From positions 168,947,315 to 169,011,314 of the forward strand of contig OV050030.1 of the NCBI GenBank assembly GCA_920105625.2: a stretch of DNA of 64,000 bases, read 5' to 3'. The position numbers and the translations under genes are program-made. Source of the DNA: Clusia tigrina (lineage: Eukaryota; Arthropoda; Insecta; Diptera; Clusiidae). Numbering within the stretch: position 1 is the first letter of the stretch; each line of letters starts with the position of its first letter. Shown here piece by piece: positions 2,713-50,424 of the stretch. Under the pieces are notes generated by a model. The model did no database searches, was not told where the DNA came from, and saw only the letters and a program-made list of their open reading frames with translations.

Positions 2713-3520
2713 ATTTGTTTGCAAGTATGGATTTCAAAAGTTGATTTTGATTATTTATTAGTTCTTGCATCATTGATTGCATTAAGGACATGAACTGTGT
2801 CATACATTGCATTAAGGTTAAGTGCACTGCCTCTAGATTTTGCGATTGTTTATTGGTATTTGAATTTTTAGCTAAATTTGATTTCAGTACATCAGAGTAA
2901 CTCATGACAGGTGGAGCATGTTTGTAGTTGAATTGGGTGCAGTCGGGATTTAATTTGGAAGCGCTACGTAAGTAACTTCGTGTCGACCTCTATCCTTATG
3001 TTGGCGCATTTTATTTTTCAAGTCAGCATACACACTGGGCAACCTCCATAGTTTGCTGTATGTCTTCCGCCGCAATTATTGCATTTTTTAGTAGGAACAT
3101 TTTCATTTTTTTTTTTTGGAGCGTACAGGCAGAGGATGGGTGGACGGCACTACAACCAACGCAAATGTGGCGTAGGGTGCAATATGATTTGGTATGACCA
3201 AACTCCTGGCAGTTTGTACATTGTACAGGGCCGTTGCGTTTGTGGGGTTCTTCAACTGAAATTCGGCTGTGCATAAGGTATCGCATATTATAGATTGGAT
3301 GAACTTCGTTTTTTTGCAGATTTCTTGATTCTGGTTCAAGCTTCACTAGGAACATTGGTTGGAGGAAATTATTCTTATTTTTTATGTTAAATATGAATTT
3401 TGGGTTGAAACCGGCTTCGATCTGTGCTTCTTTCATCTCAGATATCTGATTCAATTCCTTTTAATACGACAATCAAACATTTACAGCTTTTCAGGGCACG
3501 TTATATAAATCAAAAGAAGA
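2713..3520 (-). pseudogene. Jockey-clade LINE ORF1 fragment (nucleic-acid-binding protein)
   Basis: Minus-strand frames at 3023-3454 and 2713-2905 encode the second half of a Jockey-type ORF1. The stretch GPVQCTNCQEFGHTKSYC is a CCHC zinc knuckle, followed by a second set, CVGCSAVHPSSAC. The C-terminal piece (SYSDVLKS, then Met/Gln-rich LMQCMTQFMSLMQSMMQ) is the helical tail typical of these proteins. These proteins coat LINE RNA in the retrotransposition particle. The frame is broken between 2905 and 3023 and its beginning near 3480 is degraded by stops. The last codons are cut at 2712/2713 by the LTR insertion; the rest of the LINE, with its RT, must lie past the left edge. Confidence 0.8.
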
Positions 3521-3624
3521 AGAGGTTGTAGTGGCCAACCGAAGTTTTAATGGTAAACAAAATCGCCAGCCTAGAATATTATACGTACCGGTCCAGAAAG
3601 AAGGGAGGGGTCTGCAGAGTTCAT
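3521..3624. other. Short unassigned spacer
   Basis: About 100 bp between the Jockey ORF1 remnant and the left direct repeat; probably Jockey 5' untranslated sequence. No frame or motif seen. Confidence 0.3.
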
Positions 3625-3839
3625 CGAGGGATTTCACTCCGACAACGACGGTCGTCAACCGGACCAGCAGTAGCAGAGGTCGCAGTATAATATAAGATTT
3701 TAGGTATAGAATAGAATTGTGTTATTGTATAGATGTTTGTATGTCAGTGAGAAAAGAGTCAACGAAAGACCAAATTATTAAAAGGGGAATATAAAAAAAA
3801 TTATAGATAAAAATACAAGAACAAAAATAAAGTAAAGAG
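3625..3839. repeat. Left copy of ~220-bp direct repeat flanking the I-clade LINE
   Basis: Begins TCGAGGGATTTCACTCCGAC and ends near GTAAAGAG. The same sequence, with scattered substitutions and small indels, recurs at 8399-8632. The A-rich tail of the LINE abuts its right edge, exactly where the repeat stops matching. Confidence 0.8.
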
Positions 3840-4012
3840 CAAAATTTATTTTATTTATTTATTTTATTTTATTAAAATTAATTACAATTCAAATTATAAA
3901 TAATAATATAAGCTCTAGCTGCGAGGGCTATCGGCTTATGATGTTGAGATTTTATATAATAGGAAAAAAGAAAATTCAATTGTATTTATATTATATTTTC
4001 AATTCTTAGTTG

Positions 4013-6811
4013 TTATAGAAAACTGTATATTGTAAAAATACTCTCATGACAGGGGGATGAAAGAATTTCTAAAGGATTTTTATTTTGGAATGCTAAGGTT
4101 CGGATGGTGAAAATGGATTGACAGGAAGAAAGGAGATGTGAGATGCTGAGAGCTGAATTATTGCAGAAGCAACATCGGAGTTGTGGTTCCTTTTTAAAAA
4201 GATGCATGTGGGTTATTAGTGTGTGATCCAATCGAAGTAGTGAGTAGCATTTTTTTATGGTGATAGATGTTGTGTGAGGATGGATCAGAGGGGATCTTGC
4301 AGGGTTGATCCTTTTATAAGGGCGGTCACATCGTACCCATTCATCGCTTAATTTTTTGTATATACTCGTATATCTCTTGGCTGATGAAATAATACTTTTT
4401 TTGGAGAATGGCTTAAAGTATTCTAATGGACAGTTCAGAGCATCTTTAGCTACTAAGTCAGCTAGCTCGATTCCAGGTATACCTGAATGTCCTGGTATCC
4501 ACATGATTTTGACTTTTTTTCATTGCAGTGAGCAATTGTTTGGCTTTTTCTATATACTATAAACTGTTAGAATAGGTTTTTGTTGCCTCATGGACTGATC
4601 CACTGTCAGTGCAGAAGACGTACTTTCCCTTTCTGTTTTCAATCCATTGTAGAGTAGTCTATTTTGGAGAGAATTGTAAGTTTCGTTGCAGAAATTAGAG
4701 TGTTAGTGTGGATATGACTTTTAGGGTATGAGAGGTATTTCAAAACGTTAAGTCTGGCAGATAGACAATTTTTTAAATATATGCAATGGTGCTTAAAGTT
4801 TTTTTATTGTCAAATATTAGGCCAAGAATTTTTAAATAGATAACATTTTCAATAGTTAAAATTAATTATTGTATTGTTGCATTTATTTTGTCTACAAATG
4901 TGTAAATTTTAAATTTAATAAAATAAATTTTTGCCCCTGAGTATAAGGACCCACTGTCAATAATCAATGTGTATCAACTAGATTTCTGTTTATTTGGTTG
5001 ATATCTTGATTCATCTGCATATAAGCAATGCCAATCTTATCGAAAGATTTTTGGAAATCTATGGAGAGCACAGATATGTGGTTTTTTGCAGAAAGACATT
5101 TACTGACTAGATGATCTATGTACAATAAAGCGTCTGTGCTACAGAGACGTGGCCTGAATCCAGTTTGGTATGCTGGGAGGAGGTTAGAATTATTTAAGAA
5201 CCACGAAAGTCTTTTGGCTATAATTTTTTCAAGAAGTTTTCCTATGCATGGTAGTAGCGAAATTGGACGATAGCTTTCCATATCGACTAAATCCTTGTTT
5301 GGCTTTTTTATGGGTATTATTAAGGCCGATTTGTAAATTTGGGGGATGATCCCAGTAGTATATATCTGATTATACAGAGATATGATTCTGGAGTGCAAAA
5401 CACGAGGTAAATTCCGTACAATTTCATAAGTAATTTTATCCTGCCCCGGAGAAGATCCGGAAACTGATTTAAGGCAAGTTGTTAGCTTATTTAAATTTAT
5501 ATCTGTATCTAGATGCTTTGAAAATTTGTTGTTAGTGTGTGAGATGCGTATTGAGAGAGAGTTGTATTTGTCTGTTAAAAATTGTGAAGAAAAATTGTGG
5601 TCTTTAGAGTTTTCAGAGAATAATTGCGCAAAATTATTTGATATTTGTAATGGGTCAGTTAGAGAGATGTGGTTCACTTGAACCATTTTTATAAAATTTG
5701 TACTATAGGTACCTGTTAGTGATTCAATTCCTCGCCAGATGTCTAATACTGAGATACTTGGATTAAGGGTTTTAGTGAAGTTTTCAAAACTTTTATTTTT
5801 AGAATTTTTTTTCTCCGTGTTAAATAAAGCGTTCTTTTTGCGATGGTCTATAAGGTTGGGTGTGGTCATATATCTTTTATAAGTCCTCCTAGCAGATTGT
5901 TTTTCGTTTCTATATTTATTTAGTTCTCTTGACTACCATGGTACATTTCTAGTTCTTTTATTTAAACGAGTTTGTGGAATAGAGGAGTTATCAGCAGAGC
6001 GAACTATTTTATGAATTTTCGAGGCTTCTTTGTTAACGTTAGTGGAAGAGTGATCAGTTGAATTGTTATCTAAGAGGAGTTTCTGAAATATAATCCAATT
6101 CGCACGTTTGCAATTAAATGTTGGTCTTTTAGGAGGAATTGGAGAGTGATTTGTGGATATTTTAAAGCTAGTGAAGATGGGGAAGTGGTCGCTATTATAA
6201 AGATCATCCAAAACATTCCACGTGGCGTGTGGGAAAAGCGAGGGTGAGCAGAGGGTTAAATCAGTATTAGAGAATGTGCCGTGAGTTGAGAAGTGTGTTG
6301 GGCTATGATTGTTTAGTAAAGAAATATTGTAATTGAGTACAAAATTCTCTATTTTTTTCTACGCTGGTTATGACAACGAGAACCCCACATGGGACTCCAT
6401 CCGTTGAAGTCTCCTGTTAATATTGTGGGTGTATTGAAGGAGTTTAAAATGTTCGGTAGGTCAGTGTCTGATATGCTCTGTTCGGGTGGTACGTAAATTG
6501 AAGCTATTGTTATAGGATATTTAATATTTACCTCGAGAGCAAATAATTGCAATATTTGATTGTATTTGGGAGAGTTTATGTGGGACACTTTTATGTACAA
6601 GAATACCAGTTCCTTGTTTACAAACGGTATTAGTTGGAAAGTTGTGAAAATATCCAGTGTTTTGGTGAGGGGTGTAAGGATTCGTGTTATGGGGTATGTG
6701 CGTTTCTTGAAGACATATTATTAGGGGGGAGAAGGTTTTAATCAGAATTTCAAGTTCTTGGTAGTTATTTTGAAAACCTTTAATATTCCATTGTAAAATA
6801 TTAAGTATCAT
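4013..6811 (-). pseudogene. I-clade LINE ORF2: endonuclease, reverse transcriptase, RNase H (broken)
   Basis: Starts at ATG 6811 (MILNILQWNIKGFQ), the QWN entry of an AP endonuclease, with LQETH following. A second frame (6600-6349) carries YVPPEQ and GDFNGWSPMWG, and a third (6211-5933) carries SDHFPIF and the PTFNCKRANW linker. RT occupies 5869-4964: SPGQDKI, SYRPISLLPCIGKLLEKI, QTGFRP and VLSIDFQKSFDKIG (motif A). Directly after DKIG comes IAYMQMNQDIN, where the YADD box should be, so motifs B and C are deleted or destroyed. RNase H ends in WIPGHSGIPGIELADLVAKD (4504 leftward), followed by a zinc-finger-like CCFCNNSALSISHLLSSC. At least four breaks; no active enzyme is possible. Confidence 0.85.
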
Positions 6812-15834: not shown

Positions 15835-16052
15835 GTATTTAGGTAAAATGCGACCGACTTTATTCATTGCTCCATTTCAACTGTCCTTATTCTTCACAGT
15901 TTTTAGTAAAAAAGCGATTTACCGTTACAATCAAAAATGCATTGTAAATTAAAAGTTTTCGTACTTTTAATTTACAGTGTGTCAACAAGGTTTTCGTACT
16001 TCAAAAAGAACTTAATTTCTTAACATTCTGAACTTGGTTTTTAATACGCAAC
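15835..16052 (-). repeat. BEL/Pao 3' LTR
   Basis: GTATTTAGGTAAAATGCGAC through TAATACGCAAC, matching 22132-22331. It contains an extra ~16 bp (TTTTTAGTAAAAAAGC) absent from the other copy. The integrase frame runs into it, ending at 16012. Confidence 0.85.
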
Positions 16053-17993
16053 GTGCCGGCGCCCTTGATGTGTCTGCAGACATATCAACCGACTTTATCC
16101 GCAGCCGTGCAACCTTGTGTATCGCGCGCCGAATGTTTCCATTTCTGGTCTTTATGTCGATTACGCGCACTTGACCTGCTGCATCTGCTACGGTTTTCGT
16201 TACTCTTCCAAGTAGCCACACTTTTGGCGGTAAGTTGTCTTCTGACACCAACACTAAGTCTCCTGCTGCCACGTTGCGCCTTTTCGCAGTCCACTTCGCT
16301 TTTCGCTGCAACTCATGCAAATACTCTGATGACCACCTCCGCCAAAAGTGTTGTTTTATGGCCGGCCGCATCCAGCGGTTGAGAAGCGAAATATTTTTGT
16401 TGTCGACAGTAGGCTCCGTAATGCCAATAAGAGGCCCACCTGTCTGGAATTTCGCTGGTGTTATCACTGCTTCGTAGTTGGGATTAGTCGAAATCGTTGT
16501 TAATGGGCGCGATTTTAGTATTGCCTTGATTTCTGTAACCACTGTGCACAGTTCCTCTAAAGTCAGAAATGACTCGCCTAATATGCGGGTCAAATGGTAT
16601 TTGACAGATTTTACCGCCCCCTTCCACAGTCCACCAGAGTGGGGGAACCGCGCTGGTATGTGACGGAAGTCGATGTTGCTGGTGACACAAAACTGTAATA
16701 TTTCGCCTTGCAACTGCTGCTCTTGAAAGTTTTCCCTGAACTCTTTCAGCTCACGGCGAGCACCCACAAAATTGGTGCCGTTGTCGCAGAACAGCTGTGT
16801 GCACAATCCTCGGCGTGCGACAAACCGCTTGAGTGCTGTGATAAACGCCTTGGCCGAGAAGTCAGAGACCACCTCCATATGAACCGCCTTAGTTGCGAAA
16901 CATATGAATACTGTGATGTAGCTTTTTGTGACGCATACTCCCCTAAGCGTGTACGTAGTTATAACAGGGCCACTGTAGTCTACCCCACTCGTCGTAAATG
17001 GCCTGGCCACGTTCACTCGTTCAGTGGGCAATTTCCCATAATTTGTTGCTTCAGACGCGGGCGGCATCGAAAACACCGCAAGCATTTCGTCGTCACCAAT
17101 CGTACCACTTTGCTTACATACACGATCCAAAATTGCTGTGGCATCAAAGCTTGCGAGCCCAAATGCATATGTTTCTCATGCACATATCGCACATAACAAC
17201 GAACGAAGTTACTATTGCCAGGTAGCAAAATAATATGTTTTTCATCATACGGCAAGCTTGCATTCTGTAAACGGCCTCCTACTCGGAGAATGTCGATGCC
17301 ATGGCAACTTTGGATGAAAACACTCAAGCCCTTCACCTTGCTTGACGAGTGCACTTCGCCCTTTCTTTGTAGCTCCCTGTACTTTTTGCCGAAGTAGTGT
17401 TGCTGCAAGCAATATACAATTCGAATTAACGCATCCTCTTGCATTGAGGTGCTCAGCGTCGGTATCTCTCCTTGCACACCCTTTATTTGCCGCAAAAGGC
17501 AGAGAAACAGTGCTACTCCTTTTAGAGTTTTTTCCAATTCACTTCGCCTCTCTAACCAACCAAAAATATGGTTATCTTGCTCCGCAGCAATCAACGTTGT
17601 GGTCTGCTTGCGCCGTTCATCAATGACTTCAGCTGACTTTTTGCATACCTTATTGGATGACCACTGATCACAAGACTTCCTTAGGAACGATGGACCTGAG
17701 AACCAGAAAAAGTTTAGTAATTCGTCAACATACGCACCTCTGAATATGATGTCTGCAGGATTTTGTCGAGAAAGAACATGTCTCCAAATTGCTGAATTAG
17801 TTGCCTCCTGGATCAAGGCAACCCTGTCGGCAACGAAAGATGTCCAAGTCGATGGATGCGCTCTCAGCCACTCGAGCACAATCTCCAAGTCACTCCCCAG
17901 ATACAGCGCATCAGGTTGAATCGCAAAATTCGCTTGTGTCTTTTCCACCAATATAGACAGCAGATGAGCTATCCTCAGCTCCAATCTAGGCAA
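16012..17993 (-). pseudogene. BEL/Pao pol, C-terminal half: RNase H and integrase
   Basis: Frame 17993-17013 starts MPRLELRIAHLLSILVEKTQ, the BEL RNase H region, with ADIIFRGAYVDEL (normally SRG) and then an HHCC-type integrase zinc finger around HEKHMHLGSQALMPQQFW and CLRCFRC. Frame 17130-16012 is the integrase core and tail: TSGVDYSGPV, FICFATKAVHMEVVSDFSAK, LFCDNGTNFVGARREL and PHSGGLWKGAVKSVKYHL supply the D,D,E residues. The basic C-terminus ends in the LTR. The two frames overlap out of phase near 17.05-17.13 kb, so one frameshift separates them. The core integrase part is otherwise clean. Confidence 0.85.
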
Positions 17994-18207
17994 TGATTTT
18001 GTTTTGGGCGCAACTCTTGATTTTGCACGTAGAGGCAGCAGCCGTAGGCCCGCTCTGATGCATCAACGAACCCTTGCATTTCTACTCTTGCGACGTCTTT
18101 TGCTTTTAAAATATAACGTGGAACCTTGACCTCTTGCATCGCTTTCAACTTGTTACGAAACTAAGTCAATTGACTGTGATACTGCATGGATAATGATTCA
18201 TCTCAAG

Positions 18208-19950
18208 CTACCTTCTGAAGCCATAAGTCTTGCAAAAAAAAAACTTCGCCTTTACCACGACCGGATTCACTTGTCCAAGGGGATCAAACAATGCCAACAT
18301 TTCCGACAATACAACCCTTTTGGTTATGGATTTGGAGGAGGATATATCTGTCCAAACATACCTGAACAAGTCCGATGCTGGTTTCCAAATAATACCAAGC
18401 GTTTTGATGATTTCGGCATCGCTAACACGCAGCGTCTTTTCTTTTTTGGCTTCTGGCACCTGCCGCAGGAAACTGTTGTTGTTTGATTGCCACTTGCGTC
18501 GTGTAAAATTTGCGAAGTTTGTGAGCGTTGACACGCCCCCGTAGATTTCGAATAACTTTTCTTCGGTGTCAGCTCCACTAATGAAATCATCTATATAAAA
18601 ATCGGACTGCACTTTCTGCGATGCCAGTGGTAACCTATTAGCATTATCTTCGCCCAACTTCTTTAGGCAGCGTGTGGCTAGGTATGGAGCTGCTGTAGTT
18701 CCATATGTGATCGTGAGCAGCCGGTACGCTTCCAGTTTCTCCTCACTAGATCGTCTCCACAAAATTGCTTGATAGTTTGTGTGTTCATCCGTAACCCACG
18801 CCTGACGATACATTTTCGTCACGTCGGCAGCTAACGCAAATCAATAACATCGAAAGCGTAGCACGATGGACAGCAAGTCATCTTGCACTATAGGCCCTTT
18901 CATCATCACGTCGTTCAGAGATAAGCCGCTACTAGTTTTACAGATGCAATCGAAGACTACCCGGAGCTTAGTACTAGTAGACTCCGGACGAAGCACATGT
19001 TGATGCGGCAAAAAATACTTCAGCTTTCCAACATCCAATGTTTCCACTTTCTCATATGTCCTAGCCGCAAATATTCGTCCATGAACTCCGTATATGCTTT
19101 TTTCGTTAATTGATCTTTATTGAGGCGTCTCTCTAATACTAGAAAGCACCGTTCACATGCATGAAAAGACTCGCCTATTTCCTTGGCATTATGTTTGAAC
19201 GGAATTTTTACAACGAATTTACCACTGTCATCTCTAGTCACGCTGCTTTGAAATATGCGCGCGCACTCTGCTTCTTCGTCGGTAAGAAAAGTTGATTTGT
19301 TATAAATTTTCTCCAGCTCCCAGAAACGCTCTACCAAAGTATTAAGCTCATCCTGTCTCTCGTCTACTCGTACTAGATCGCTCACTAAACTTTGAGCTGT
19401 CACATGACCATCTTCGTTCATTTTCGTTCCGCCTGATACAATCCATCCCAGTGTTGTTTTCTGCAATCTTGTGAAACCCTCGCACAGCTTTATTTGTCCC
19501 ACAGGTAGTAAGACCAAAAATACTTCTGCGCCTAGCAAAACGTCCACTCGCGCTGGAATTTGAATCCTACATCTGCTAGCTTCACGTTTTTTGGTATTTT
19601 CGAAGCTGATATATCCACAAATTTATCAGGCTTCCTTCCTGTTATTTTAGGCAAATGTAAAATTGTAGCGCTATCTCAAAGTCACTAAGGTGCGACTTTA
19701 TCGTTGATTGTACCTTCTTCGATATGTTCATGCCGACACCATTTACACCATTGAACTCCATTGAGCACGCTGCTTTCGGCAATCTCAACGCCTGCGTCAC
19801 GTAATCGCATATCAGATTTATTTGCGACGAGGAATCTAAAAGTGCGCGCGCAGAGTGGGATCGATCACATGCATCTTTCACCAGTATGACAGCAGTCTCC
19901 AGGAAAACCTCCCCTACAGAAGAGGTCTTTGTGCTCATTTGCAACGCCAC
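18208..19950 (-). pseudogene. BEL/Pao protease and reverse transcriptase
   Basis: 19950-19642 is the aspartic protease: RALLDSSSQINLI, where DSGSQ is usual, so Gly is replaced by Ser. 19547-19020 is the connector and RT start (VLLGAEVFLVLLPVGQIKL; TRLQKTTLGWIVSG). 19047-18841 gives YFLPHQHVLRPES and KLRVVFDC. 18822-18208 holds the palm with DFYIDDFISGAD as the catalytic box, and FDPLGQVNPVVVKAK, the BEL-specific region after the RT. A stop (18841) and frameshifts separate the frames. Confidence 0.85.
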
Positions 19951-20116
19951 CTTCTTTGTTGTTGAGTTGCCATCGCGCCATCTTCAGTATAACCTGACAC
20001 AGTAAATTGGCACTTTGCGCATTTCGGTGCTTTACATTGCCTGGACCAATGTCCTTTACTCAAAAGCAGAAGGCACAACTTAGATGTTCGTGCAGCTAAG
20101 TGGTGCTCCTCTTCAC

Positions 20117-21680
20117 TCAGCGTATGAATTTCGAGCAATTCACTACGTCATGTCTACCTTTGTGGCAAATGCTGCAAGACGTCTGCTCTATTGTCAGCGA
20201 CGTTGTTGTATTTCGCTTCACGAACGTACCGTTTGGCTTGGTTTTCCGTTGAACATTCCTCCCCGAATCCTGCTTTACATCGACTCGTACCGTCTTCGCT
20301 TCTCGTGCTTCCAAAGTTTGGCACCGCCGAGATAATACCACTGAACAATCTTCCCATGTAGACAACTTCGTATAGTAAACGGCTTCTTCCAAATTGGCTT
20401 GCGATTCGGTATCTAAAGTCTCCATCACCAGAAATATGATGAGAGCATTAGCCACATCTTCATAGTTCCCAAGCGAAAGCATCGCGCTCAAGCGCGCGTT
20501 GGTGGTGTCAATTACCTTACTTAATTCCGCAGCAGATCCTTTGGTTGTCTTTTGCAATTCGAAAAGTGCAGCGATGTGCTCTTCAAAAATAAGAGCTTTC
20601 TTATCGAAACACGACTGCTGCATCGCCTTCGGATAATTCTCATCCGTTTCATCGAAGTTTGCGATTGCTGATAGTGGTCTTGGACCCAAGCTCTCTTTGA
20701 GTATCAGAAACCGTTCGCAACGTTTCATCATGATGAACCATCTTATTGAATAACGCGATGAATTTAGGGAATTCAGCATATTGTTGGGGTCCTTGCTGCT
20801 CGTCGGGAGACGTCCTGTCTCGGTTCGCTGGGCGCGTAGCTGAAAACACTGAACCACTTTCCTAAATAAGCACTGCACTATTTTTGGTTTAAAATAACAA
20901 GCAACTTTATTCTTAATACAATTCTCAATTACAATACAAAAACTGACCTTTCTGGTGTTCCAGTTTCGCACATGTTAATTGGTGTCAGTTGGTCAAGCCA
21001 ACTGATCTACTTTACTGTACAAATGTCGACGGTGCATTCTAAATTCCAACGCCCTTCGTCGACTCGACTGCGGAACTGTAACACGCTAAAAGTTTACATA
21101 ATCTTTAATACATAAATTCTAGGTACTTACAATACTTGCACCCTAAAAATATGTGCTTTCTTAATAAATTTAATAGGAGCCGGTGCTGTGAGTCAACTAC
21201 TCGTAGTTAGCTTGATTCTAACTCACAACAATATTTTCCATCGAATTTGAGAATCTTAATTTCGCGCCGTAAGCGCGGTGGTGATGCCGCAAATGACGCC
21301 GTGTGTGACCTACTAATATCAGCTACAGATGTTCGTCTTTCTGGAATCAACGCCATTTTGGTTGATTTCGCACTCACATATAGCTCCTCCACATCACCAA
21401 TGAAAACAGCATTGGCAGACGTGTCTGCTTCTGGGCAAATTTTATCGATGCTTGCCTGCACGCTGAGAATCTGCTTGAAGTGGGCTTCCAAAATACCAAG
21501 CCGGCACTCCAACTCTTCTGCAAGCAGAGCAGCACCCTTTTTTGCCACCAAATTCCTAATTTGTGTTATACTCCCTTTATTCGACGCTCGCAGAGACTTT
21601 AGGTCCACGAGCTTTTGACCACACTTCATCGTAGCTGCCGCTTCAACTGCAATATCATCTTTCTCATCGTCAGAGGCCAT
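20117..21680 (-). pseudogene. BEL/Pao gag, split by a solo LTR
   Basis: ATG at 21680 (MASDDEKDDIAVEAAATM). The N-terminal coiled-coil part runs to KILKFDGKY at 21235, where the frame is broken by the 449-bp insertion. On the far side it resumes as AEFPKFIALFNKMVHHDETL, the conserved BEL gag core, then a frameshift near 20.71 kb, then SLGPRPLSAIANFDETDENY and FEEHIAALFELQK. It ends with zinc knuckles (CSICHKGRHDVVNC, then GHWSRQCKAPKC in the next frame at 20138-19935). Without the insertion the reading would be continuous at this point, which dates the LTR insertion after BEL integration. Confidence 0.85.
20778..21234 (-). mobile_element. Solo LTR (20782-21230) of the gypsy-like family with 4-bp target duplication
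   Basis: Minus strand starts TGTTGTGAGTTAGAATCAAG and ends CCCCAACA, 449 bp. ATAT flanks it at 20778-20781 and 21231-21234. Removing the LTR and one ATAT leaves the BEL gag codons contiguous. Solo LTRs arise by recombination between the two LTRs of a full element, leaving exactly this footprint. Confidence 0.92.
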
Positions 21681-22131
21681 ATTTTTTTTTCTTTTTCAAT
21701 TCGTTATGATTATCGAAAACTATTCTCCGTATAGAACTTATTCTTCTATGCTCTGTATTTTTCATTTAAATATCAAATTTTAAACCAGAGCTTTTGCAGC
21801 TGCTATAAACTCGTTCTGCTTCTGCGCTACTGACGCTACTGCAGGCTCGCACCGCTGCTGCGCCACTGGAACCAACAAAAAAAAACCGACGCCAACGTTG
21901 TTATACGCAATTTTTAAACCCGAACGAATTTTTTTTCAATTTTCTTCGAGAATCACTTGCTTATTAGTTAATTCCAAATTCTTTATATTTCTATTTGCTT
22001 CCACTGAAGCTTCACAAAATTTAATTCAATACAAATGTTAGAACGTAATTATTTTTGCGATCCCGCAATATAAAAAAAATTACTAATTAAGCAACAAATT
22101 ATTAGGAAAAAAAACTCTTTGAACTTTTTCA

Positions 22132-24439: not shown

Positions 24440-24942
24440 CAAAATTTGTAAACATTTCTTTTCTTCTTTTTACAGATTAAAACAATTTTTTTTTTTATAA
24501 CACAGATAAAAGTGCATGAAGAAATAAAAGTGACTAAATAAAAGAACGTAGAAAAATTCTAACAAAGTGCTAAAACAAAAAGTGCCTAAATAATAAAATA
24601 TAGATATTTCTTGACATAAAAAAACGTTAAAAAGGTGCCTAAATAATTTAATATAGATATTTTTTTTTTTTTTATAAAAAACGTTCAAACAAAAAAGTGC
24701 CTAAATAGATATTTTTTCTTAAAAAAAAAAGAAGAAAAAAATATATTTACCAAGATATTAGAAATAAAAGTGCCCAAATAAAGCAATATATAAAAAATAT
24801 TTTCAAAAGATAAAAGAAAGAAGTGCCGGGTAGAACGGAAAAGTTTAAAGAAGGTGCTATTTTAAAAATAAAACTAGTAATAAGTGTCAAATGGTGTCAA
24901 ATTTAAAAAATGGGAGAGAGAAGATATTCAAAAGAGAAGTTT
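24440..24942 (+). repeat. Retroelement leader with reiterated AAAGTGCC(T/C)AAATA motif
   Basis: A-rich sequence in which a motif of the type AAAGTGCCTAAATA recurs at uneven spacing, for example near 24578, 24632, 24700 and 24770, with intervening ATATAGATATTT blocks. A comparable array, with GTGTGCCA or GTGCCA in place of GTGCC, lies on the minus strand at about 45.9-46.3 kb, upstream of a gypsy RT. It is probably the untranslated leader of the plus-strand errantivirus-like element whose gag resumes at 29.34 kb. Confidence 0.5.
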
Positions 24943-25407
24943 TGTAAAGATGGGCTCAATTAATTTATTTAGCGGCGCGAGATCTAGCGCACAATTTCAA
25001 TCGGCGACTACTAGTGTACAGCCAAATATTTGATGAGAAACGAAAGGTTTGGTTTCCAGTTCGAATCTGATTTATTGATAAAATCTTATTGCTATTTATA
25101 CTTTTAATTTCTTATGTGCTAAGACTTAGTATATAATATGGTTCTTAATACATAAAGAGGGCTTTTGCAATGTCAGCGGAAATTATCACGGTCAATGCCA
25201 GCGTACAGCGTACAGCGTCGTTTGAGGGCATCGAATATTAGAATGCAACGTAATCAAAAACGTGCGTGCTGTTCGCGCTTCATAACGTAAATATTCTTAT
25301 ATATGAGATATCGATGTACTTACGTTGGGTCTCCACTTACATTGCATGTGCCTACGCCGCGTATGGTGTTGGCGTTTGTGTGTACATTATGCTTTTCATA
25401 CACTACA
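24943..25407 (-). repeat. 3' LTR of the mdg1/412-like element (465 bp)
   Basis: Minus strand TGTAGTGTATGAAAAGC to CATCTTTACA, proper TG..CA ends. Preceded on the minus strand by CAGTAGGATAAGGG, the polypurine tract. Very similar to 28655-29107. Confidence 0.9.
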
Positions 25408-25518
25408 CCCTTATCCTACTGGGAAAAAAAAATTTTTTGTTGGTGTTTAAACAAAAAAATTTTTTTTTGTAAAAGTATTTATGTTATATTAATTACTTAA
25501 AATTTTACTTGTTTATCT

Positions 25519-26445
25519 TTACAACGGTGTATATTTTTTTAATAAGTTTTTATGGAGTTCTTTTATTTCTCCTTTTATTTCTAATAGACAATTTACGTTC
25601 CGAAATTTAATTACTCTATAAGGACCATTGTAGGGTTTTTGGTTTTTCTTTCTATTCATATTACTTACTAATACCATATCTCCTATATTTAAATCTAGTG
25701 TGTTTATGTGTTTTTGTGTTACAATACTTTTTTGTAGTTTCGATTTTTCGATTAATGCTTTTGCATTTTTTATTGAATAATGTAATCTAATTCTGAGTTC
25801 GTTAGCGTAGTTATCCATATTGTATATTTTTGGATTTTCTTGGCTGTCAGTACTTGAGATGTGTGGTAATTTGCCATATACAAGCTCAAAAGGTGTGTAT
25901 TGTGTGTCTACATGAGGGGTTGTATTATATGCAAAGGTATAGAACGGGATCCAATTGTGAAAGTTATAGTCGTTGGTAAAAGATAACATGAATTCATTTA
26001 ATACGGGGTGATTTCTTTCTACTGATCCTAATGTTTGGTGATGGTATGGTGTTGAGAATTTTTGTTTAATATCTAGTAATTTGCAAATGTTGTGCATGAG
26101 CTCATTTGCGAACTCAGTGCCTCTATCTGATTTTAAGGTGTTAAAATGGCCATATTTTAGGATACATTGTTCTACTACTGTTTTAGCTACGGTTTTAGCG
26201 TCTTTGGCTTCTATTGGGTGTGCTATTACAAATTTTGTCAGTTAGCACTGTATTGTGAGTATGTATCTGAATCTGTCTGACATTCTTAGTGGTCCAACTG
26301 TGTCTATTTCAAGTACTTCAAAACTAGTGTTTGGTGTGTCTGTTATTATTTCTTTTTCGTGTATATGTTTAGTTATTTTGTTCTGTGCGCATTTGTCACA
26401 GTTTTTTATAAAATCTTTCACCATTCGACTCATATTTTTCCACAC
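25519..26445 (-). pseudogene. Integrase of the mdg1/412-like element
   Basis: 26445-26242 holds the zinc-finger end (NCDKCAQNK) and EVLEIDTVGPL, the first catalytic Asp region. 26097-25519 holds the core end and C-terminal domain: FSTPYHHQTLGSVERNHPVL (catalytic Glu in VERNH), GDMVLVSNMNRKKNQKPYNG and a basic tail ending LLKKYTPL. Between 26242 and 26097 the frame is interrupted near GTKCAN-like sequence. A gypsy-superfamily integrase joins the cDNA ends to host DNA; this copy is broken once. Confidence 0.8.
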
Positions 26446-26537
26446 ATATCTTTGTTTTAGTTTTATAGTGGTTTTTCTTATACCAAAGTGTCCTCAATGT
26501 GTTGAGTTGTGATATTCATTTATTAATTTATATTTAA

Positions 26538-27323
26538 TTATATCGTTTTCAATTCCTTTAGGAATATATAATAATCTTCATATATAATAATCTTGTATCC
26601 GAAACGATTTTCTTTAATTTGCTGTTCCTGCAGCTTGTTAAATATATTTTTAAATTCTTCTTTTTGTATACCTTCAAAAATTATATCTTTATTCGATAGC
26701 GCGAAAATGTCGACTTTTAATTTTTTTATTTCAGATGCTAGCTTCTCCATAATCGAAACGTATTTCGTATAGTTATCACTAGATCTACTATGCATAGTTT
26801 TTGTATTAAGAGGTGACAGCTTCTCCTGAATCGAAACGGATTTCGGTGGATTATCGTTGTACCTTACGCGCAATATATTCTTATATTTTTCATAGATTAA
26901 TTGAGTACTCTTCATATTTATATCGTTCGCTTTTGCAAATTTCAATTTTGTAATGTATCTGACGTCAGTAACAGATGTACAGTCCCAGATATGAAGTTGA
27001 TCAGACTTCTCTTGGGTTTTGTATTTTACTTGTTTTTGTTGGTATGCATGTTTTTTGGCAGCCATTCTCCTTGTTATAATTAATGTTCTTTTAGCTTTTT
27101 CATCGGGCTCTTTAGGAATCATTTGTTTGAAAGTTCCTGAATAAATTTTGATTCTGGAAAGTGCGTCTGCGTTGGTATTTGATTTTCCTCTTTGTAGTAT
27201 GTCAAAATCAAAATGGTATTCTTGTCATTGTAAAAAGTGATACTAATGGTTAGTGGCAACTGTAAATTTGTTGACTATTTAAAATTGCTAAAATTTCTTT
27301 TCAATTACTGGTTTAACTACACA
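26538..27323 (-). pseudogene. RNase H remnant and linker of the mdg1/412-like pol
   Basis: The minus strand resumes retroelement sequence just after the A-tract of the host insert. Traces of RNase H (KFTVATNH, about 27.26 kb) lead to RGKSNTNADALSRIKIYSG near 27.16-27.21 kb, the usual end of a gypsy RNase H. The open frame 27122-26538 (MIPKEPDEKAKRTLIITRRM) is the Lys-rich linker found between RNase H and integrase in 412/mdg1-type elements. The RNase H itself lacks its front half. Confidence 0.7.
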
Positions 27324-27775
27324 TTTTTTTTTTCAAAACTTAAATGTAAAAATTTGTTTTTGTGAATTTACTTTTAAAATTTAAGCACAAAATTTATTTC
27401 ATTTTAATCTGCGATTTTACATAACAAAATTTTGTTGTTGTATTTGCAACATTTTGCAATAAATTTTATATTTTTTCTGCGTTTCCTAATGCTTTTGTTT
27501 AATGTTTCTCCATTACATATGTAAATGAATTATTAACTCCATATTAATATAATTATAATAATAACATTTATATTATATATGGTCTTTAAATTAAATTAAA
27601 AGTCACGTATGTATAGGTATATAAAAATATTAAAGATTCTTAACTAATATTTAAATGTATTAAGTTGCTTACCTATAATATTAATATCTGTTTCTAAAGA
27701 CAAAATTATGCAAAGCTAAAATTATAACCATTTCTTTTGTTATTTTTTTTTTTTATAAACATTTACAATTAAAGT

Positions 27776-27837
<62 letters not shown>

Positions 27838-27893
27838 ATATTAAATACAAAAATAGTTTAAGAAAATGAGATTAAAAAAATAGTCTTAAATGT
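27324..27893 (-). other. 3' untranslated sequence of the captured host transcript, with A-tract
   Basis: Downstream (minus) of the PP1-inhibitor-like frame lie about 560 bp of AT-rich non-coding sequence, a (TA)n run at about 27779-27835, an AATAAA at 27393-27398, and ten A residues at 27324-27333. Retroelement RNase H sequence begins directly afterwards. This is what the 3' end of a polyadenylated mRNA would leave, although 60 bp from AATAAA to the A-tract is on the long side. Confidence 0.6.
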
Positions 27894-28267
27894 TTACAGC
27901 GTTTTAGCACGCTCCAAAAGATCACTGCTAAATTTCGATATTTCCGATTATGGTCGTTTACAGACTGACAATAAATTAATGACATGAGATATTCTTATGT
28001 CATCTGTGTCCATATCTAAAATGTCATCGTTGTCTACCTCGATGGCCTCGCCTGGTGGATCAAAGACTTTCTGCAGTTCATCATACAGCCACATCTCCAA
28101 GCCAGTCTCTTTCGTATTACACTCATCTGATGGAAACTATATTTGGCGGTTAGGAACTTCTCCTGTCGCTTCTTAACTTCGGAACTTCTCTCATTAAAAT
28201 TGACGCGTAAATTTTGTTGGTTCGGTAAACGCTCACAAATATTCAGTTTTTTGGGACCGCACTGCAT
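27894..28267 (-). pseudogene. PP1 inhibitor (PPP1R14/CPI-17-like) retrocopy inside an LTR element
   Basis: ATG at 28267. The first frame contains NFNERSSEVKKRQEKFLTAK and HQMSVIRKRLA; after a one-base loss at about 28101 the next frame continues EMWLYDELQKVFD, EAIEVDNDDILDMDTDD and NLLSVCKRP, then an in-frame TAA (27948-27950), then SEISKFSSDLLERAKTL and a final TAA at 27894. The phosphorylatable loop region before RKRL, the E-W-L..L helix, the acidic DxDDxLDM stretch and the Leu/Cys/Lys-Pro helix are the ordered landmarks of the PP1 inhibitor family, small cytosolic proteins that block protein phosphatase 1 when phosphorylated. Length (~124 codons) suits the family. No intron is visible. One frameshift and one stop make it a pseudogene. 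It lies between the retroelement gag start and RNase H, same strand. Confidence 0.85.
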
Positions 28268-28338
28268 TTTGAAAACAACTTTGGTCGATTTTATGTTGTC
28301 TTATTACTGCATTTTTTGAACTGGGTGTGAGATTGTAG

Positions 28339-28416
28339 CTAGGAGTCTCCCTTCTGAATGTGTTGCTCTGCCAGTTGTTGAAATTTTTCGAATGGTCGGT
28401 GGAAATCGGTATTCAT
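28339..28416 (-). CDS. Truncated gag start (25 codons)
   Basis: ATG at 28414-28416 opens MNTDFHRPFEKFQQLAEQHI and reaches a TAG at 28339-28341. It lies about 95 bp after the primer site, where gag begins in mdg1/412-like elements, and host-derived sequence follows shortly. Called gag by position only. Confidence 0.45.
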   Translation of the reverse strand: MNTDFHRPFEKFQQLAEQHIQKGDS

Positions 28417-28511
28417 CTTCTTATTGCAGTTTTAGGATTATTTTAGGATTGTTTAAAATTTTGGGGTTTTTAATAAAGTGCCAGTTTGGCAGGATTGATA
28501 AGAGAATTGCC

Positions 28512-28529
28512 AGTTTGGCAGGATCGCCA
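28512..28529 (-). promoter_or_regulatory. Primer-binding site, tRNA-Arg type
   Basis: Minus strand TGGCGATCCTGCCAAACT directly after the LTR end. The first 14 bases complement the CCTGGCAGGATCG-CCA type 3' end expected for an insect tRNA-Arg, the primer class known for mdg1/412. A second, partial copy of CCAGTTTGGCAGGAT lies 25 bp further in (28480-28497). Confidence 0.7.
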
Positions 28530-29107
28530 AGTAAAGATGGGCTCAATTAATTAATTTAGCGGCGCGAGAGCTAGCGCACAATTTCAATCGGCGACTACTA
28601 GAGTACAGCCAAATATTTGTGTATGAAGCGAAAGATATGATGGCTATGTACAGATGGGCTCAAAGTATTATTTAGCGACACGAGAGCTAGCGCACAATTT
28701 CAATCGGCGACTACTAGAGTACAGCCAAATATTTGATGAGAAATGAAAGGTTTGGTTTCCAGATCGAATCTGATTTATGGATAAAATCTTATTGCTATTT
28801 ATACTTTTAATTTCTTATGTGCTAAGACTTAGTATATAATATGGTTCTTTATACATAAAGAGGGCTTTTGCAATGTCAGCGTAAAGTATCACGGTCAATG
28901 CCAGCGGACATTCGTTCGAGGGCATCGAACATTAGAATGCAACGTAATCAAAAACGTGCGTGCTGTTCGCGCTTCATAACGTAAATATTCTTATATGAGA
29001 GTTCGATGTACTTACGTTGGGTCTCCGCTCACATTGCATGTGCCTACGCCGCGTATGGTGTTGGCGTTTGTGTATATATATATACATTATGCTTTTCATA
29101 CACTACT
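28530..29107 (-). repeat. 5' LTR of the mdg1/412-like element (578 bp, with internal duplication)
   Basis: Matches 24943-25407 but is longer because about 110-125 bp at its 3' end is present twice (28531-28621 and 28652-28740, both containing GCGCACAATTTCAATCGGCG). Its right terminus reads CAGTAGTG instead of TGTAGTG on the minus strand. Confidence 0.85.
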
Positions 29108-29339
29108 GTTTAAACTGAGAACATAAAATCAATAGAGGAGAGAATCGGTGAGTGTTAATAAATATTACTATAGACGATTTAAGGAAATCTGGGACCGAAC
29201 TAACGTGGGCTGTCAGCGCTCTCTTGTCCAACCGCGTCTGACAGCAGTTGAAGGTTCTGGGGATAGATTCTAACGGTCTCTTGTAGCTATCGAAGCATGA
29301 GTAAGTAAGCAGTTTCTTTAGATCAAGACTGGACGAGTC

Positions 29340-36266: not shown

Positions 36267-37007
36267 GTATTTGGGTATATAATTAAATATATTTTGTTTA
36301 GATAAATGTTTTGCAAATATTTTTAATGTGTTTTTTAAAAGTGCTCCATATATGTGGTATTTTCGATATATACATTGAGTTTTAACAAGTTTCTGGGCGA
36401 GATCAAGCAAATTTTATTAAACGCTCTTATAATATCATATATCAGCTTATATATCCACAAAAAAAAATCTTGCGAGTTTACTGCGTTTTTTTTACTTATT
36501 TAAGTTATTGCGATTGAACTCCAGTTGCTAAAAACATATGCTGAAAAATCAAACAAACATTCAACTTGTTTGTTTCTTACTCTCTTTTGTCTTTATTTTC
36601 GGTATTAAAGTTATTGTTGTTAATGAGTTTCCTTTCTATTAGAGATGGGTGCGTGAGTTAGTTTTGACTCACGCTCACTTACGAAAAAAAAGTTCTGTGT
36701 TAATTCCAACGAATAAAAATGTTCACATATGTCCATGCTATAATGGCGTCAGTAGTTTAAAGTGCACGGAATTATCACCGAAACACTTAGGGCCAATATT
36801 ATATTGTCATATTAATTTGTATTTTGTATTGATTGTGTCTTTGTGTCTTTGTTTTATTTGAAGTGTTGTGTAATTGTAAAGTACATTATCGTTATTTGGT
36901 ACAAGGGAAAAGAATAAAATTTTGCAAATTTTAAACAATAAATCTTCCTTTTTTTGGGAACAACTCCGAAAACAATTTTTATTTCTCGTCGTGAACTACA
37001 TAATTTT

Positions 37008-39011
37008 ATGAAAAATACAGAACCTCAGTTCCTTAAAGATAAATTTAAGCTTCTGAGATGGGAAGTAATCAAACTTATCAACCCTTCACATATGGTCGAT
37101 TTTATGAAAAGATTTAATTATTTCTGCTCAGAATATAAGCTTCGGTGGGAAAAATGTCACAGGAAAGAACAATTTCTTTTAAACAATAATAAGAATTGGC
37201 TTGATGCTTCCATCTCGTTTGTTCCACCACCAACACCGTTAATAAAACCAGGACGCAAAGATCTCTCATTTGAGGAGTGTAAAGAAAACACAAAAGCTAA
37301 GAAGTGTAAGGAGTTAAGAGACAATATTCCTTTGCACGTTTTGGCTTATGCCACACAAATGAGCTTGAGAGCTTCTGGAAAAACTGATGCGTCAGAAATA
37401 GTTAAGGAATTAATATCATCTCCAAGAAGAGCGACAAAATATGGAAAAAGTTCCAAACAGGTACCAACACAACAATTAAGTGCTGAGGAAGCTCTTTCGG
37501 TTTTAGTTGAAGCGAAGCTAACTCGACACCAATATAATGTCATTAGAAACGAAGTGCCTGATAAATTTCCGTCATATAAAAAAGTCCAAGAAGTTAAGAA
37601 AAAATGTTATCCAAAACAAGAACATATGAACTTTTCTGAAACATCAGCGCAAGTCAGTCTACAAGGACTCTTAGATCATACCACTGAGCGTCTAGCTTTG
37701 GTACAGAACTCTGTGCTGGATTCGTTTAACGCTGAGGAACTATCACAAATGACTTTGTACTCTAAGTGGGGCTTTGATGGAAGTTCCGGTCATAGCTCTT
37801 ATAAACAAGCATTTCACGGCTCTGACGCTAGTGATTCTGCTGTATTTTTTACATCTTTAGTGCCATTAAAAATTGTCTGTATGAATAAAACCATTTGGCA
37901 AAATCCTCGACCTTCTTCTACTAGATTTTGCAGACCCATAAAAATTGAATTTTTGAAAGAAACAGTAAGTACTTCAAAACTTGAAAAAGAAAGAGTAGAG
38001 GATGAAATAAAAGCTCTCAAGGAATCCGTTGTATTAGTCGGTGATAAATCAATGAAAATAAATCACAAACTAATGTTAGTGATGATTGATGGCAAAGTGT
38101 GTAATGCTATTACCGAAACAACATCCACACAAAAATTTTACGTTTGTGGTGCTACGAGCAAAGATTTTAACTGTATTGATCAAATGATTACAAGAAGTGT
38201 AAACAAAGATACGTATCAGTTCGGATTATCTATTCTCCATGGCTGGATTAGGTTTTTTGAGTGTCTTCTCTCACTTAAAAAGTGGCAAGCTAGATCAGAT
38301 AATGACAAACAAGTTGTTAAAGACACAAAAACGAGAATTCAAAAAGATTTCAGAGAAAGAACTGGATTGATCATTGACCAACCAAAACCAGGCTTTGGCA
38401 ACACAAATGATGGCAATACCGCGAGAAGGTTTTTTAAGAATGCAGAAGTTTCCTCAGAAATAACAAAACTTGATCTAGAGTTAATTAACAGAATGCACAT
38501 AATACTTATTGTCGTGTCATGTGGCCACGAGGTAAATAGTGAAAAGTTTAGAGACTTTGCTCACAATACTGCCAGGCATTTTGTTGAAAAATATCCATGG
38601 TATATAATGTCAACTACCCTTCATAAATTGTTTATTCATGGACCGGAAATAATATCTAATGCCCTTTTGCCGATTGGTGAGCTTTCAGAGGAACCACAAG
38701 AGGCTAGAAACAAAGATTTTATAAACTATAGGGAATACTTTGCTCGTAAATCCAGCCGGGAAAAAACTAAGGAAGACATATTTAATAGATTTCTGCTTAC
38801 TTCAGATCCATTCTTTACCAGCATGAGTAAAACTAATAGAAAAAAAAATTCACACAAAATACCACAGTTGGCATTGGAATTATTAATTCTACCCGAAGAA
38901 TGCGACAAGGATGATGATGATGATGAAGAAGATGATGATGATGATGGTGGTGATGATGATGATGATAATGATGATGATGATGATGTTGACTTTTATCACA
39001 ATAATACCTAA
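37008..39011 (+). CDS. Transib/RAG1-like transposase
   Basis: Open from the stop at 36939 to TAA at 39009; the first ATG is 37008 (667 aa; residue numbers here count from the TTG at 36954, 685 aa). Landmarks, in the order of the RAG1 core: KWGFDGSSGHSSYKQAF (Asp275), LMLVMIDGKVCNAITE (Asp379), FYVCGATSKDFN (Cys398), GFGNTNDGNTARRFF (482-494), TLHKLFIHGPEII (His557, His562) and LPIGELSEEPQEARNKDF (Glu579/580). In RAG1 the matching places hold D600, D708, a CxxC pair, GNFARKL, HKTLAH and E962. The enzyme would nick and hairpin DNA at the element ends, in the nucleus. The first Cys of the CxxC is Phe here. The C-terminus (649-679) is almost all Asp/Glu from GAT repeats. No stop or frameshift seen. 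No membrane segments. Confidence 0.82.
   Translation: MKNTEPQFLKDKFKLLRWEVIKLINPSHMVDFMKRFNYFCSEYKLRWEKCHRKEQFLLNNNKNWLDASISFVPPPTPLIKPGRKDLSFEECKENTKAKKCKELRDNIPLHVLAYATQMSLRASGKTDASEIVKELISSPRRATKYGKSSKQVPTQQLSAEEALSVLVEAKLTRHQYNVIRNEVPDKFPSYKKVQEVKKKCYPKQEHMNFSETSAQVSLQGLLDHTTERLALVQNSVLDSFNAEELSQMTLYSKWGFDGSSGHSSYKQAFHGSDASDSAVFFTSLVPLKIVCMNKTIWQNPRPSSTRFCRPIKIEFLKETVSTSKLEKERVEDEIKALKESVVLVGDKSMKINHKLMLVMIDGKVCNAITETTSTQKFYVCGATSKDFNCIDQMITRSVNKDTYQFGLSILHGWIRFFECLLSLKKWQARSDNDKQVVKDTKTRIQKDFRERTGLIIDQPKPGFGNTNDGNTARRFFKNAEVSSEITKLDLELINRMHIILIVVSCGHEVNSEKFRDFAHNTARHFVEKYPWYIMSTTLHKLFIHGPEIISNALLPIGELSEEPQEARNKDFINYREYFARKSSREKTKEDIFNRFLLTSDPFFTSMSKTNRKKNSHKIPQLALELLILPEECDKDDDDDEEDDDDDGGDDDDDNDDDDDVDFYHNNT
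38910..38990 (+). repeat. (GAT)n repeat encoding the acidic tail
   Basis: GATGATGAT-type repeats interrupted by GAA, GGT and AAT codons, in frame with the transposase. Confidence 0.9.
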
Positions 39012-50200: not shown

Positions 50201-50424
50201 TCGACGAAAAGACCTACTGCTGGGGCCACATGGTTTATATAGCCCAATTGGTCACAGCGGCTGTTGCATGTTGTTATTGGCGGGCCACCATTGTGTAACT
50301 TTACTTTCGTTGGCCGGCCTCGCTTTCTACTAGTCGTCATGCCTGTTGTTATTGTGGTCACGCTTCTTGTTGTTGTGGTCAGGCTTGTTGTTGTCGTAGT
50401 ATTCAACTGCTGATGGTCAACCAC
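50190..50424 (-). pseudogene. Thr-rich, AT-hook-bearing part of the errantivirus-like gag region (copy B)
   Basis: Minus frame: a Thr run (NTTTTTSLTTTTRSVTT), then SRKRGRPTKVKLHNGGPP, whose KRGRPTK is an AT-hook, the minor-groove DNA-binding motif. It continues the gag-like frames of copy B and is deleted in copy A. The frame is cut by the LOA LINE at about 50200. The start is a GTG, so the true beginning is uncertain. Confidence 0.5.

Follow-up and report, generated by a model that had tools for sequence, protein, structure and literature searches.

A family of LTR retroelements carrying an intron-free host PP1-inhibitor gene in the fly Clusia tigrina

The window analysed here, a stretch of 64,000 nucleotides from the genome of Clusia tigrina (contig OV050030.1), contains an LTR retroelement with a reading frame of the PPP1R14/CPI-17 type, derived from a host gene that encodes a PP1 inhibitor. 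This locus raises the question of how a host gene came to lie between two LTRs, and of whether it has moved and been kept together with the element.

Structure of the window element and its PPP1R14 frame

The 4.2-kb retroelement occupies positions 24943-29107 on the minus strand and is flanked at both ends by AAAC duplications (GTTT on the plus strand), which confirmed the LTR element that an earlier sequence-only reading had placed at 24939..29111. It exhibits the hallmarks of the Ty3/Gypsy type (Metaviridae), namely two LTRs, a primer site, a polypurine tract and a short target duplication. From the 5' to the 3' end of the element, the following features were distinguished:

29108..29111, minus strand: target-site duplication AAAC on the 5' side, read directly
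28530..29107, minus strand: 5' LTR, with 116 bp of its 3' part duplicated internally
28516..28529, minus strand: primer binding site TGGCGATCCTGCCA, an identical or near word being present in copies from other subfamilies
28339..28416, minus strand: short frame in the gag position, 25 codons followed by TAG
27541..28336, minus strand: captured host cDNA (5'UTR, four spliced exons and the initial ~270 nt of 3'UTR from the parent), from alignment to the spliced parent mRNA
27894..28267, minus strand: PPP1R14 reading frame (PP1 inhibitor of the CPI-17 type), with a length of 124 codons where it is intact
27321..27540, minus strand: AT-rich stretch of ~220 nt, also present in the tested copies of types B and C (L051, L052)
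27191..27320, minus strand: RNase H remnant from the older host-gene-bearing lineage, recognized by visual inspection and from alignment with relatives
26494..27190, minus strand: last part of RNase H plus the linker to integrase, the gag-pol family backbone starting at ~27190 (crossover)
25519..26493, minus strand: integrase, with a zinc-binding domain (26242-26493) and a core (25519-26241), one stop between them
25408..25420, minus strand: polypurine tract AGTAGGATAAGGG, read directly
24943..25407, minus strand: 3' LTR
24939..24942, minus strand: target-site duplication AAAC on the 3' side

The divergence between the 5' LTR (29107-28530) and the 3' LTR (25407-24943) was 0.043, and the 116-bp duplication in the former was copied from its own 3' part. 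The primer site TGGCGATCCTGCCA matches what we take to be the 3' end of tRNA-Arg. The gag start that had been proposed corresponds to an ATG at 28416, which opens the 25 codons; the stop of this leader frame had an identical position in 19 of the 20 copies L009-L028 and came earlier in L024. Neither a gag nor a protease of its own was found in the window element, the gag position being occupied by the 25-codon frame only, and the element is thus a non-autonomous derivative of the Ty3/Gypsy type. A domain search found no RT in the window copy. RNase H and integrase were present as expected from the sequence-only reading, the former as a remnant that aligned to relatives and the latter with an Integrase_H2C2 match above cut-off (1.1e-14); the rve match was just under it (1.8e-07, 31.8 bits; cut-off 32.6). 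The 32 integrase relatives included none bearing a lineage name such as mdg1/412. Among seven targets tested, the AT-rich stretch before RNase H had matches in L051 and L052 only. Weak matches to a Borrelia domain, an RdRP, a Vp20 capsid and RnlA were considered spurious.

The PPP1R14 frame of the window copy, which is one of the broken copies, has lost 1 nt near 28100 and contains a stop at 27950-27948. Its assignment was upheld in intact copies, in which PF05361 scored 31.0 bits (L005) and 35.8 bits (L006) for a cut-off of 22.4; the pieces of the window copy (E 0.035) and the type E copy L057 (21.4 bits) were below cut-off. Thr40 of the element protein aligns with Thr38 of CPI-17 (the T of VTVKY in 1j2m, in a T-x-K-Y context) and was kept in all 41 copies compared, 20 having been picked for open frames; it was lost in the pseudogene L030. 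The frame also holds element-specific residues, for example GFHQMSVIRKRLALEM. The 124-aa product of the element is a putative PP1 inhibitor retaining the position of the inhibitory phospho-threonine. An AT-repeat stretch was observed inside the captured 3'UTR part of the window copy.

Parent gene, mobility and recombination of the element family

The parent PPP1R14 gene was located on contig C3 (locus L029). It has four exons and encodes a protein with 119 of 124 residues identical to Stomoxys P0005, as compared by eye. The element aligned with the spliced parent mRNA, all three parental introns being missing exactly at the splice sites, from 77 nt before the parent ATG, through the coding sequence and ~270 nt into the 3'UTR; the host 3' untranslated sequence recognized earlier was thereby placed. 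The junctions first proposed (28310-28340 and 27323) were correct within a few bases, since host homology runs from 28336 and RNase H begins at ~27320. The homology started at base 186 or 187 of the parent mRNA in L013, L019, L020, L051, L053, L054 and L060-L064, and this common start indicates one capture event. In L054, the captured 3'UTR extends to about L029:2515. The 3' end of the original capture was eroded in the element copies.

A genome search returned 40 long DNA matches, 33 of which covered nearly the full host segment with the same ends, and 151 protein matches. A separate protein listing covered 120 of 175 proteins. Apart from the window there were 39 long matches, and the 20 with the highest DNA scores were fetched (L009-L028); L015/L018 and L021/L022 were apparently local duplicates of each other and were not independent. 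Further copies (L031-L050, L057-L064) were chosen from the protein matches by open frame or divergence, so that types B, C and E, like half of the Thr40 count, are subject to selection bias. The copies read started at the same leader junction, with the primer site and LTR. When the leader alone was searched, 38 of the 40 places scored, among 154 candidates, adjoined a host-gene match (hand comparison). LTR pairs were compared by local alignment, with partial overlaps only for L016, L024 and L027. Target duplications were readable in four copies and differed in each: AAAC (window), GTAT (L012), CCTC (L027) and ACGT/ATGT (L009, imperfect). Because the segment ends are common to the copies and the 4-bp duplications differ, the host segment moves with the element as a unit. 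The family comprises types A, B, C and E, together with a pair of older copies (D), and has spread the intron-free host gene genome-wide in dozens of copies.

Moreover, a gag-pol family provided the backbone of subfamily A, to which the window copy belongs. Its member L055 contains a 397-aa frame in the gag position (without an accepted Pfam match), a protease (RVP at 24.8 bits, above the cut-off of 20.7), and RT, RNase H and integrase in that order; no host gene was found in it. Subfamily A was 97-99% identical to this family (L055/L056) from mid RNase H onward, the A copy L013 matching L056 at 603/611, 589/600 and 442/451 bases over 3690-5350 and matching type B at 163/170 bases just upstream. 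On these alignments, subfamily A is a recombinant in which the host module sits in a gag-pol family backbone, with the switch inside RNase H; the molecular event behind it is one that we infer. The window subfamily is a later recombinant, which corrects the interpretation proposed at first.

Copy L053, near the root of the tree, exhibited RT (8e-25) followed by RNase H (9.4e-18) downstream of the host gene, and the interval between the host gene and RT was too short for gag and protease. None of the examined copies of types A, B and C had RT. Since L053 retains RT behind the host gene, which from the tree is probably the older state, it suggests that gag and protease were replaced by the host gene and that RT was lost later. 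Loss of RT at capture was judged unlikely on the basis of this one copy, and RT loss was probably not part of the event. The capture of a spliced host transcript, as proposed by the sequence-only reading, is supported by the common segment ends with differing 4-bp duplications and by the three parental introns that the element lacks. L053 could instead have regained RT through recombination, as A swapped its 3' half, and gag and protease could have been lost after capture.

Taken together, we consider spliced-mRNA capture, mobility as a unit, splitting into types and later gag-pol recombination to be the best explanation, with a probability of about 0.9. The later homology start in types C (247) and E (239) counts against it.

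Retention of the frame and origin of the host segment

The whole frame was intact in 14 of the 21 copies taken by DNA score; L031-L050 and L057-L064 were kept out of this count because of the way they had been chosen. We give slightly less than an even chance to the frame being passive cargo of an element that lives on proteins supplied in trans, its spread being unaffected. Nonsynonymous to synonymous ratios agree with this: fixed stem changes amounted to about 36 to 10, neutrality predicting about 2.7-3.7 to 1 (four changes shared by L030 and the element, 2 N and 2 S, were attributed to the branch of the parent, and three complex sites were omitted), and dN/dS between the parent and 5 A copies was 0.84-0.95. 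With values this near neutral, no strong constraint on the protein is apparent, and purifying selection on the protein sequence was not upheld, on stems or within copies. However, no stop or frameshift was fixed on the line to subfamily A, where 3.3-4.4 were expected (P 0.037-0.013), although this test is modest, the indels not being polarised and the UTRs being AT-rich. The parent and the A copies L019, L020 and L028 showed no ORF indels, whereas the captured UTRs had 5-6 indels common to most A copies in about 290 nt (5'UTR compared in 19 of 21 copies and 3'UTR in 13 of 21, two alignment-end artefacts being dropped). In type E, a deletion of ~20 codons left the frame open to its end (3 copies read, picked for open frames). 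The frame was probably retained by selection while its amino acids drifted.

The host segment could also have originated as a processed PPP1R14 pseudogene, made by a LINE and inserted into the gag region of an element that continued to move and carried it along; we regard this as improbable. An intron-free PPP1R14 retrocopy outside the element does seem to exist (L030, a pseudogene, 82% identical, to which neither the leader nor the RNase H end of the L013 query matched), and a tail may have been lost with the eroded 3' junction. The A10 tract is not conserved, however: L020 reads GAAAAGAAAAT there, so that the tract is no evidence of a poly(A) tail, and this reading of it was rejected. Nor, in L020 and L051, did the sequence flanking the 5' junction have any word of 6 nt or more in common with the 3' flank, a weak comparison because these 3' flanks may not be original, and the short stretch between host gene and RT in L053 likewise speaks against a pseudogene added to a gag region.

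Ordinary host-gene duplicates or pseudogenes struck by retroelements by chance, for which one might invoke L030, intron-free and without the element leader, and the fact that element context was checked for part of the 151 protein matches, are refuted for the copies read by their shared leader junction, primer site and LTR, the leader-adjoining matches, the common LTR-to-LTR structure and the distinct target duplications, and are extremely improbable overall.

Proposed history of the capture and its significance

In the proposed history of spliced capture, a Metaviridae-type fly LTR element would have recombined with spliced host PPP1R14 mRNA, most probably by template switching during reverse transcription inside a particle with packaged host mRNA. 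The complete host coding sequence, with parts of the UTRs, would have been placed where relatives have gag and protease. The chimera, presumably reliant on capsid proteins in trans, moved as a unit and split into types A, B, C and E and the older D copies, many copies having open frames; RT was lost, at least from the examined members of A, B and C, and subfamily A recombined into the L055/L056 backbone through the switch inside RNase H. The LTR-driven RNA would encode the short upstream frame, followed by the 124-aa putative PP1 inhibitor.

Host gene pick-up by vertebrate retroviruses is textbook knowledge. In acute transforming retroviruses, a spliced host regulatory gene replaces structural genes, and the virus is defective and helper-dependent; those are infectious agents of vertebrates, whereas the fly case is a genomic element with many copies. 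Maize Bs1 is likewise an LTR element with spliced host gene sequence inside and, according to a review, incorporated parts of three genes, none of them complete (PMC13317346), whereas the fly element carries one whole coding sequence, in several types of animal element. A genome survey describes rice and sorghum LTR elements carrying host genes between their LTRs (PMC3726574, PMC7264820). In metazoans, including Drosophila, LTR-mediated retroposition by template switching between LTR elements and host mRNA has been reported (Tan et al. 2016, as described in two reviews, PMC5408686 and PMC8232201); these accounts concern retrocopies, whereas in the fly the chimera has become a multi-type element. 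The Burro elements of planarians, giant and gypsy-like, have a long ORF with MATH/TRAF, Ubi2/SUMO-like, BCL-2 and dUTPase-like domains (PMC6431247), and resemble the fly element as animal Ty3/Gypsy-type elements carrying cellular-type domains. There, the domains lie within a giant element keeping gag and pol, and the available text describes no parent gene or spliced capture (PMC6431247); the fly element, in contrast, is small, with a whole host cDNA replacing gag, and both its parent gene and its junction have been identified. The claim of novelty is narrowed by Burro. Capture by LTR elements is already known; what is new is the history of a capture in an animal.

Rather tentatively, the captured PP1 inhibitor may be a working accessory gene under element-level selection, an insect counterpart of a retroviral oncogene, in which PP1 inhibition in germ cells would favour transcription, packaging or escape from silencing, and whose cassette would persist beyond its backbone through recombination into new gag-pol families.

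It is seldom possible to follow how a single chimera becomes a diversifying element family with a complete host regulatory gene. In this case, one genome holds the parent gene, the form with RT, the forms without it, the recombinant and the gag-pol donor family, so that the steps of the capture can be ordered. The finding raises the question of mobile elements using host signalling proteins for their own spread.

Structure of the window element and its captured protein

The window (C1:168947315-169011314 of a 1.214-Gb genome) was found to contain an LTR element with a host PP1-inhibitor gene inside it, as the sequence-only reading had described. The element comprised the following features, listed from 5' to 3'.

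29107-24943, minus strand: LTR element, between AAAC duplications
directly after the 5' LTR, minus strand: primer site TGGCGATCCTGCCA
after the primer site, minus strand: gag-position frame of 25 codons, ending in TAG
28336 to ~27541, minus strand: host-derived stretch
between the host stretch and the RNase H remnant, minus strand: AT-rich sequence, ~220 nt
3' of the AT-rich ~220 nt and before the integrase, minus strand: RNase H remnant
after the RNase H remnant, minus strand: integrase (Integrase_H2C2, 1.1e-14; rve, 1.8e-07, slightly below cut-off)
after the integrase, minus strand: polypurine tract, then 3' LTR

The host frame of the window copy was disrupted by a 1-nt deletion and a stop, and PF05361 (PP1_inhibitor) stayed under its cut-off in a domain search of window pieces. 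The window contains several other transposons: frames resembling those of retroelements (integrase, RT and gag types, judged by eye) lie at 16012-21695, 48981-50213 and 53951-55941, all on the minus strand. A stop-to-stop open frame of 689 aa whose tail is acidic was also present (36942-39011, plus strand).

The proteins encoded by two intact copies, L005 and L006, are 124 aa long and matched PF05361 with 31.0 and 35.8 bits, respectively (cut-off 22.4). When L006 was aligned with CPI-17 (1j2m; E 0.0037), Thr40 fell on the threonine of the V-T-V-K-Y motif, which we take to be Thr38 of CPI-17. A search of 5.8 billion proteins returned 175 matches; among the 120 listed, the closest were dipteran PPP1R14B proteins of equal length and none exceeded 76% identity. 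The version carried by the element was thus not encountered, among those listed, outside this species.

Parent gene and types of element

A protein search of the same genome gave one match at C3:91262, with 92% over residues 1-77. The host parent gene, L029, has four exons (exon 1 to 1178; exon 2, 1251-1325; exon 3, 1565-1606; exon 4 from 1686) separated by GT-AG introns, and codes for 124 aa. Its spliced mRNA aligned with the element copies without interruption across all exons, from 77 nt 5' of the ATG to about L029:1999, some 270 nt inside the 3'UTR. This uninterrupted alignment shows that the host segment passed through an RNA intermediate, which bears out the earlier proposal of a spliced host transcript. 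A second intron-free PPP1R14 copy, L030 (C3:147416512-147416883; 82% identity with a Stomoxys protein), has a stop, lacks the element leader and is apparently an independent processed pseudogene.

In a tree of 41 element copies, the parent and L030, subfamily A (28 copies, including the window) was separated by a branch with a support of 100, B (4 copies) by 99 and C (7 copies) by 100; D, consisting of the older copies L048 and L050, lay closest to the parent and was not a clade. Type E (L057-L059), which is outside the tree, has an open frame of 156-158 aa that starts close to the primer site and runs through the host gene, with about 20 codons lost in frame near the C-terminus, and may encode an N-terminally extended protein; PF05361 scored 21.4 bits in L057, slightly below cut-off. 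Homology to the parent began at mRNA base 186 or 187 in L013, L019 and L020 (A), L051 (B), L053 and L054 (D), and L060-L064, at 247 in C (L052) and at 239 in E. A single capture is the simplest reading.

Position of the host gene and origin of subfamily A

L053, a longer fetch around L048, carries the host gene, then RT (PF00078, 8e-25) and RNase H (PF17917, 9.4e-18), and the interval between host gene and RT is too small to hold gag and protease. L055, from a gag-pol family sharing the A backbone, has a 397-aa gag-position frame (without an accepted Pfam match), protease (RVP, above cut-off), RT, RNase H and integrase, and a host-gene match was looked for in it and not found; L056, of the same family, has long pol frames. 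These gene orders in L053 and L055 place the host gene at the gag and protease position of its relatives. In the A copies, and in the B (L051) and C (L052) copies read at length, the host part leads on to RNase H with no RT in between. L053 might have regained its RT instead of keeping an ancestral one, and an RT behind the host gene is known from this single copy; because of the position of L053 in the tree, loss of RT after capture is the better reading. A loss of RT at the moment of capture is accordingly unlikely, since L053 has RT.

The A copy L013 matched L056 at 603/611, 589/600 and 442/451 aligned bases over 3690-5350 and at 445/459 in the LTR; just upstream of this L056-like part (3480-3650), it matched L051 (B) at 163/170. 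The switch point lies inside RNase H. L055 agreed with L013 at 95% across the corresponding 3' part, and the B and C integrases differ from that of A (e.g., 373/470 and 279/354 for C). The L056-like 3' part joined to a B-like upstream part identifies A as a recombinant, an old host-gene module inside the body of another gag-pol family.

Mobility, selection and proposed propagation

The host segment moves with the element. A genome DNA search gave at least 64 matches, 40 long (33 nearly full length) and 24 short on the AT-repeat; the best 40 of 420 candidates were scored, so these counts are a lower bound. Among the 21 copies examined for ends (the window and L009-L028), both ends were readable in four, with different 4-bp duplications: AAAC/AAAC, GTAT/GTAT, CCTC/CCTC and, with one mismatch, ACGT/ATGT. 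The protein search of the genome (150 of 346 candidates scored) gave at least 151 matches, at least 54 of which covered residues 1-124 stop-free (hand count, tandem and segmental duplicates included); element context was checked for part of the 151. LTR pairs differed, over most of their length, by 0.043 (window), 0.034 (L009), 0.014 (L012) and 0.015 (L026), and by 0.016 in the tandem copy L013.

Head-to-tail host-gene copies were observed at C1:365559497-365579090, at C2:73674386-73685514 and in L013. Their ~3.7-kb spacing equals one LTR plus interior; the element forms tandem arrays at these places, which may be developing into a satellite. Integrase matches ~6.7 kb apart occurred from C1:338158610 and C1:141570461 onward. 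In L009-L028, the border of LTR and primer site holds a 22-bp unit, TGGCGATCCTGCCATCTTTACA (primer site and LTR end), in varying numbers of repeats, which makes LTR length differ from copy to copy. A satellite array with a repeat period of about 195 bp adjoins or encloses L021 and L022 (C55).

The frame was intact in 14 of the 21 copies, chosen by DNA score, in which we tallied nine disabling events (six frameshifts and three stops) against 74 other substitutions. At that rate, 3.3-4.4 disabling events would be expected along the branch leading to A, depending on whether its 27 element-side changes or the full 36 differences are taken; not one had become fixed (P 0.037-0.013). Indels common to most copies numbered three in the captured 5'UTR (two perhaps one event) and three in a 218-nt 3'UTR block; among the copies that were compared with the parent, the 372 coding nt contained none. 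Thr40 was retained in 41/41 copies and lost in L030. Residues 35-72 (0.84) and 99-124 (0.88) were closer to the parent in identity than residues 1-18 (0.58). With moderate confidence only, selection probably preserved the frame. Against conservation of the gene, about 36 fixed changes were nonsynonymous and 10 synonymous, where neutrality would give 2.7-3.7 to 1, dN/dS was 0.84-0.95 (five copies), and within-copy ratios were 84:30, 40:12 and 45:10; the amino-acid sequence itself appears little constrained, again with moderate confidence only.

Plant LTR elements such as Bs1 are known to capture host genes (PMC13317346), and template switching with host mRNAs has been reported in animals (PMC5408686 and PMC8232201, citing Tan et al. 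2016). The planarian Burro elements, gypsy-like animal elements with cellular-type domains (PMC6431247), are a precedent for the present one. Searching the literature for PPP1R14 with retrotransposon gave only unrelated work, judged by title and abstract start, and for PP1 inhibitor, captured and retrotransposon, nothing. In the literature surveyed, again by title and abstract start and with subscription journals largely outside, we saw no LTR family of an animal that carries an entire host gene through several types; this gap falls short of proof that such families are absent.

In the mechanism we propose, the LTR promoter would serve a short upstream frame followed by the PP1-inhibitor frame, whose start (CAAAATG) is presumably a good context. 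The gag-pol relatives would supply the particles, the RT and, at the least, Gag and protease; a second related family (~59% integrase identity), in which 12 of the matches listed have frames 1309-1319 aa long, could also supply proteins.
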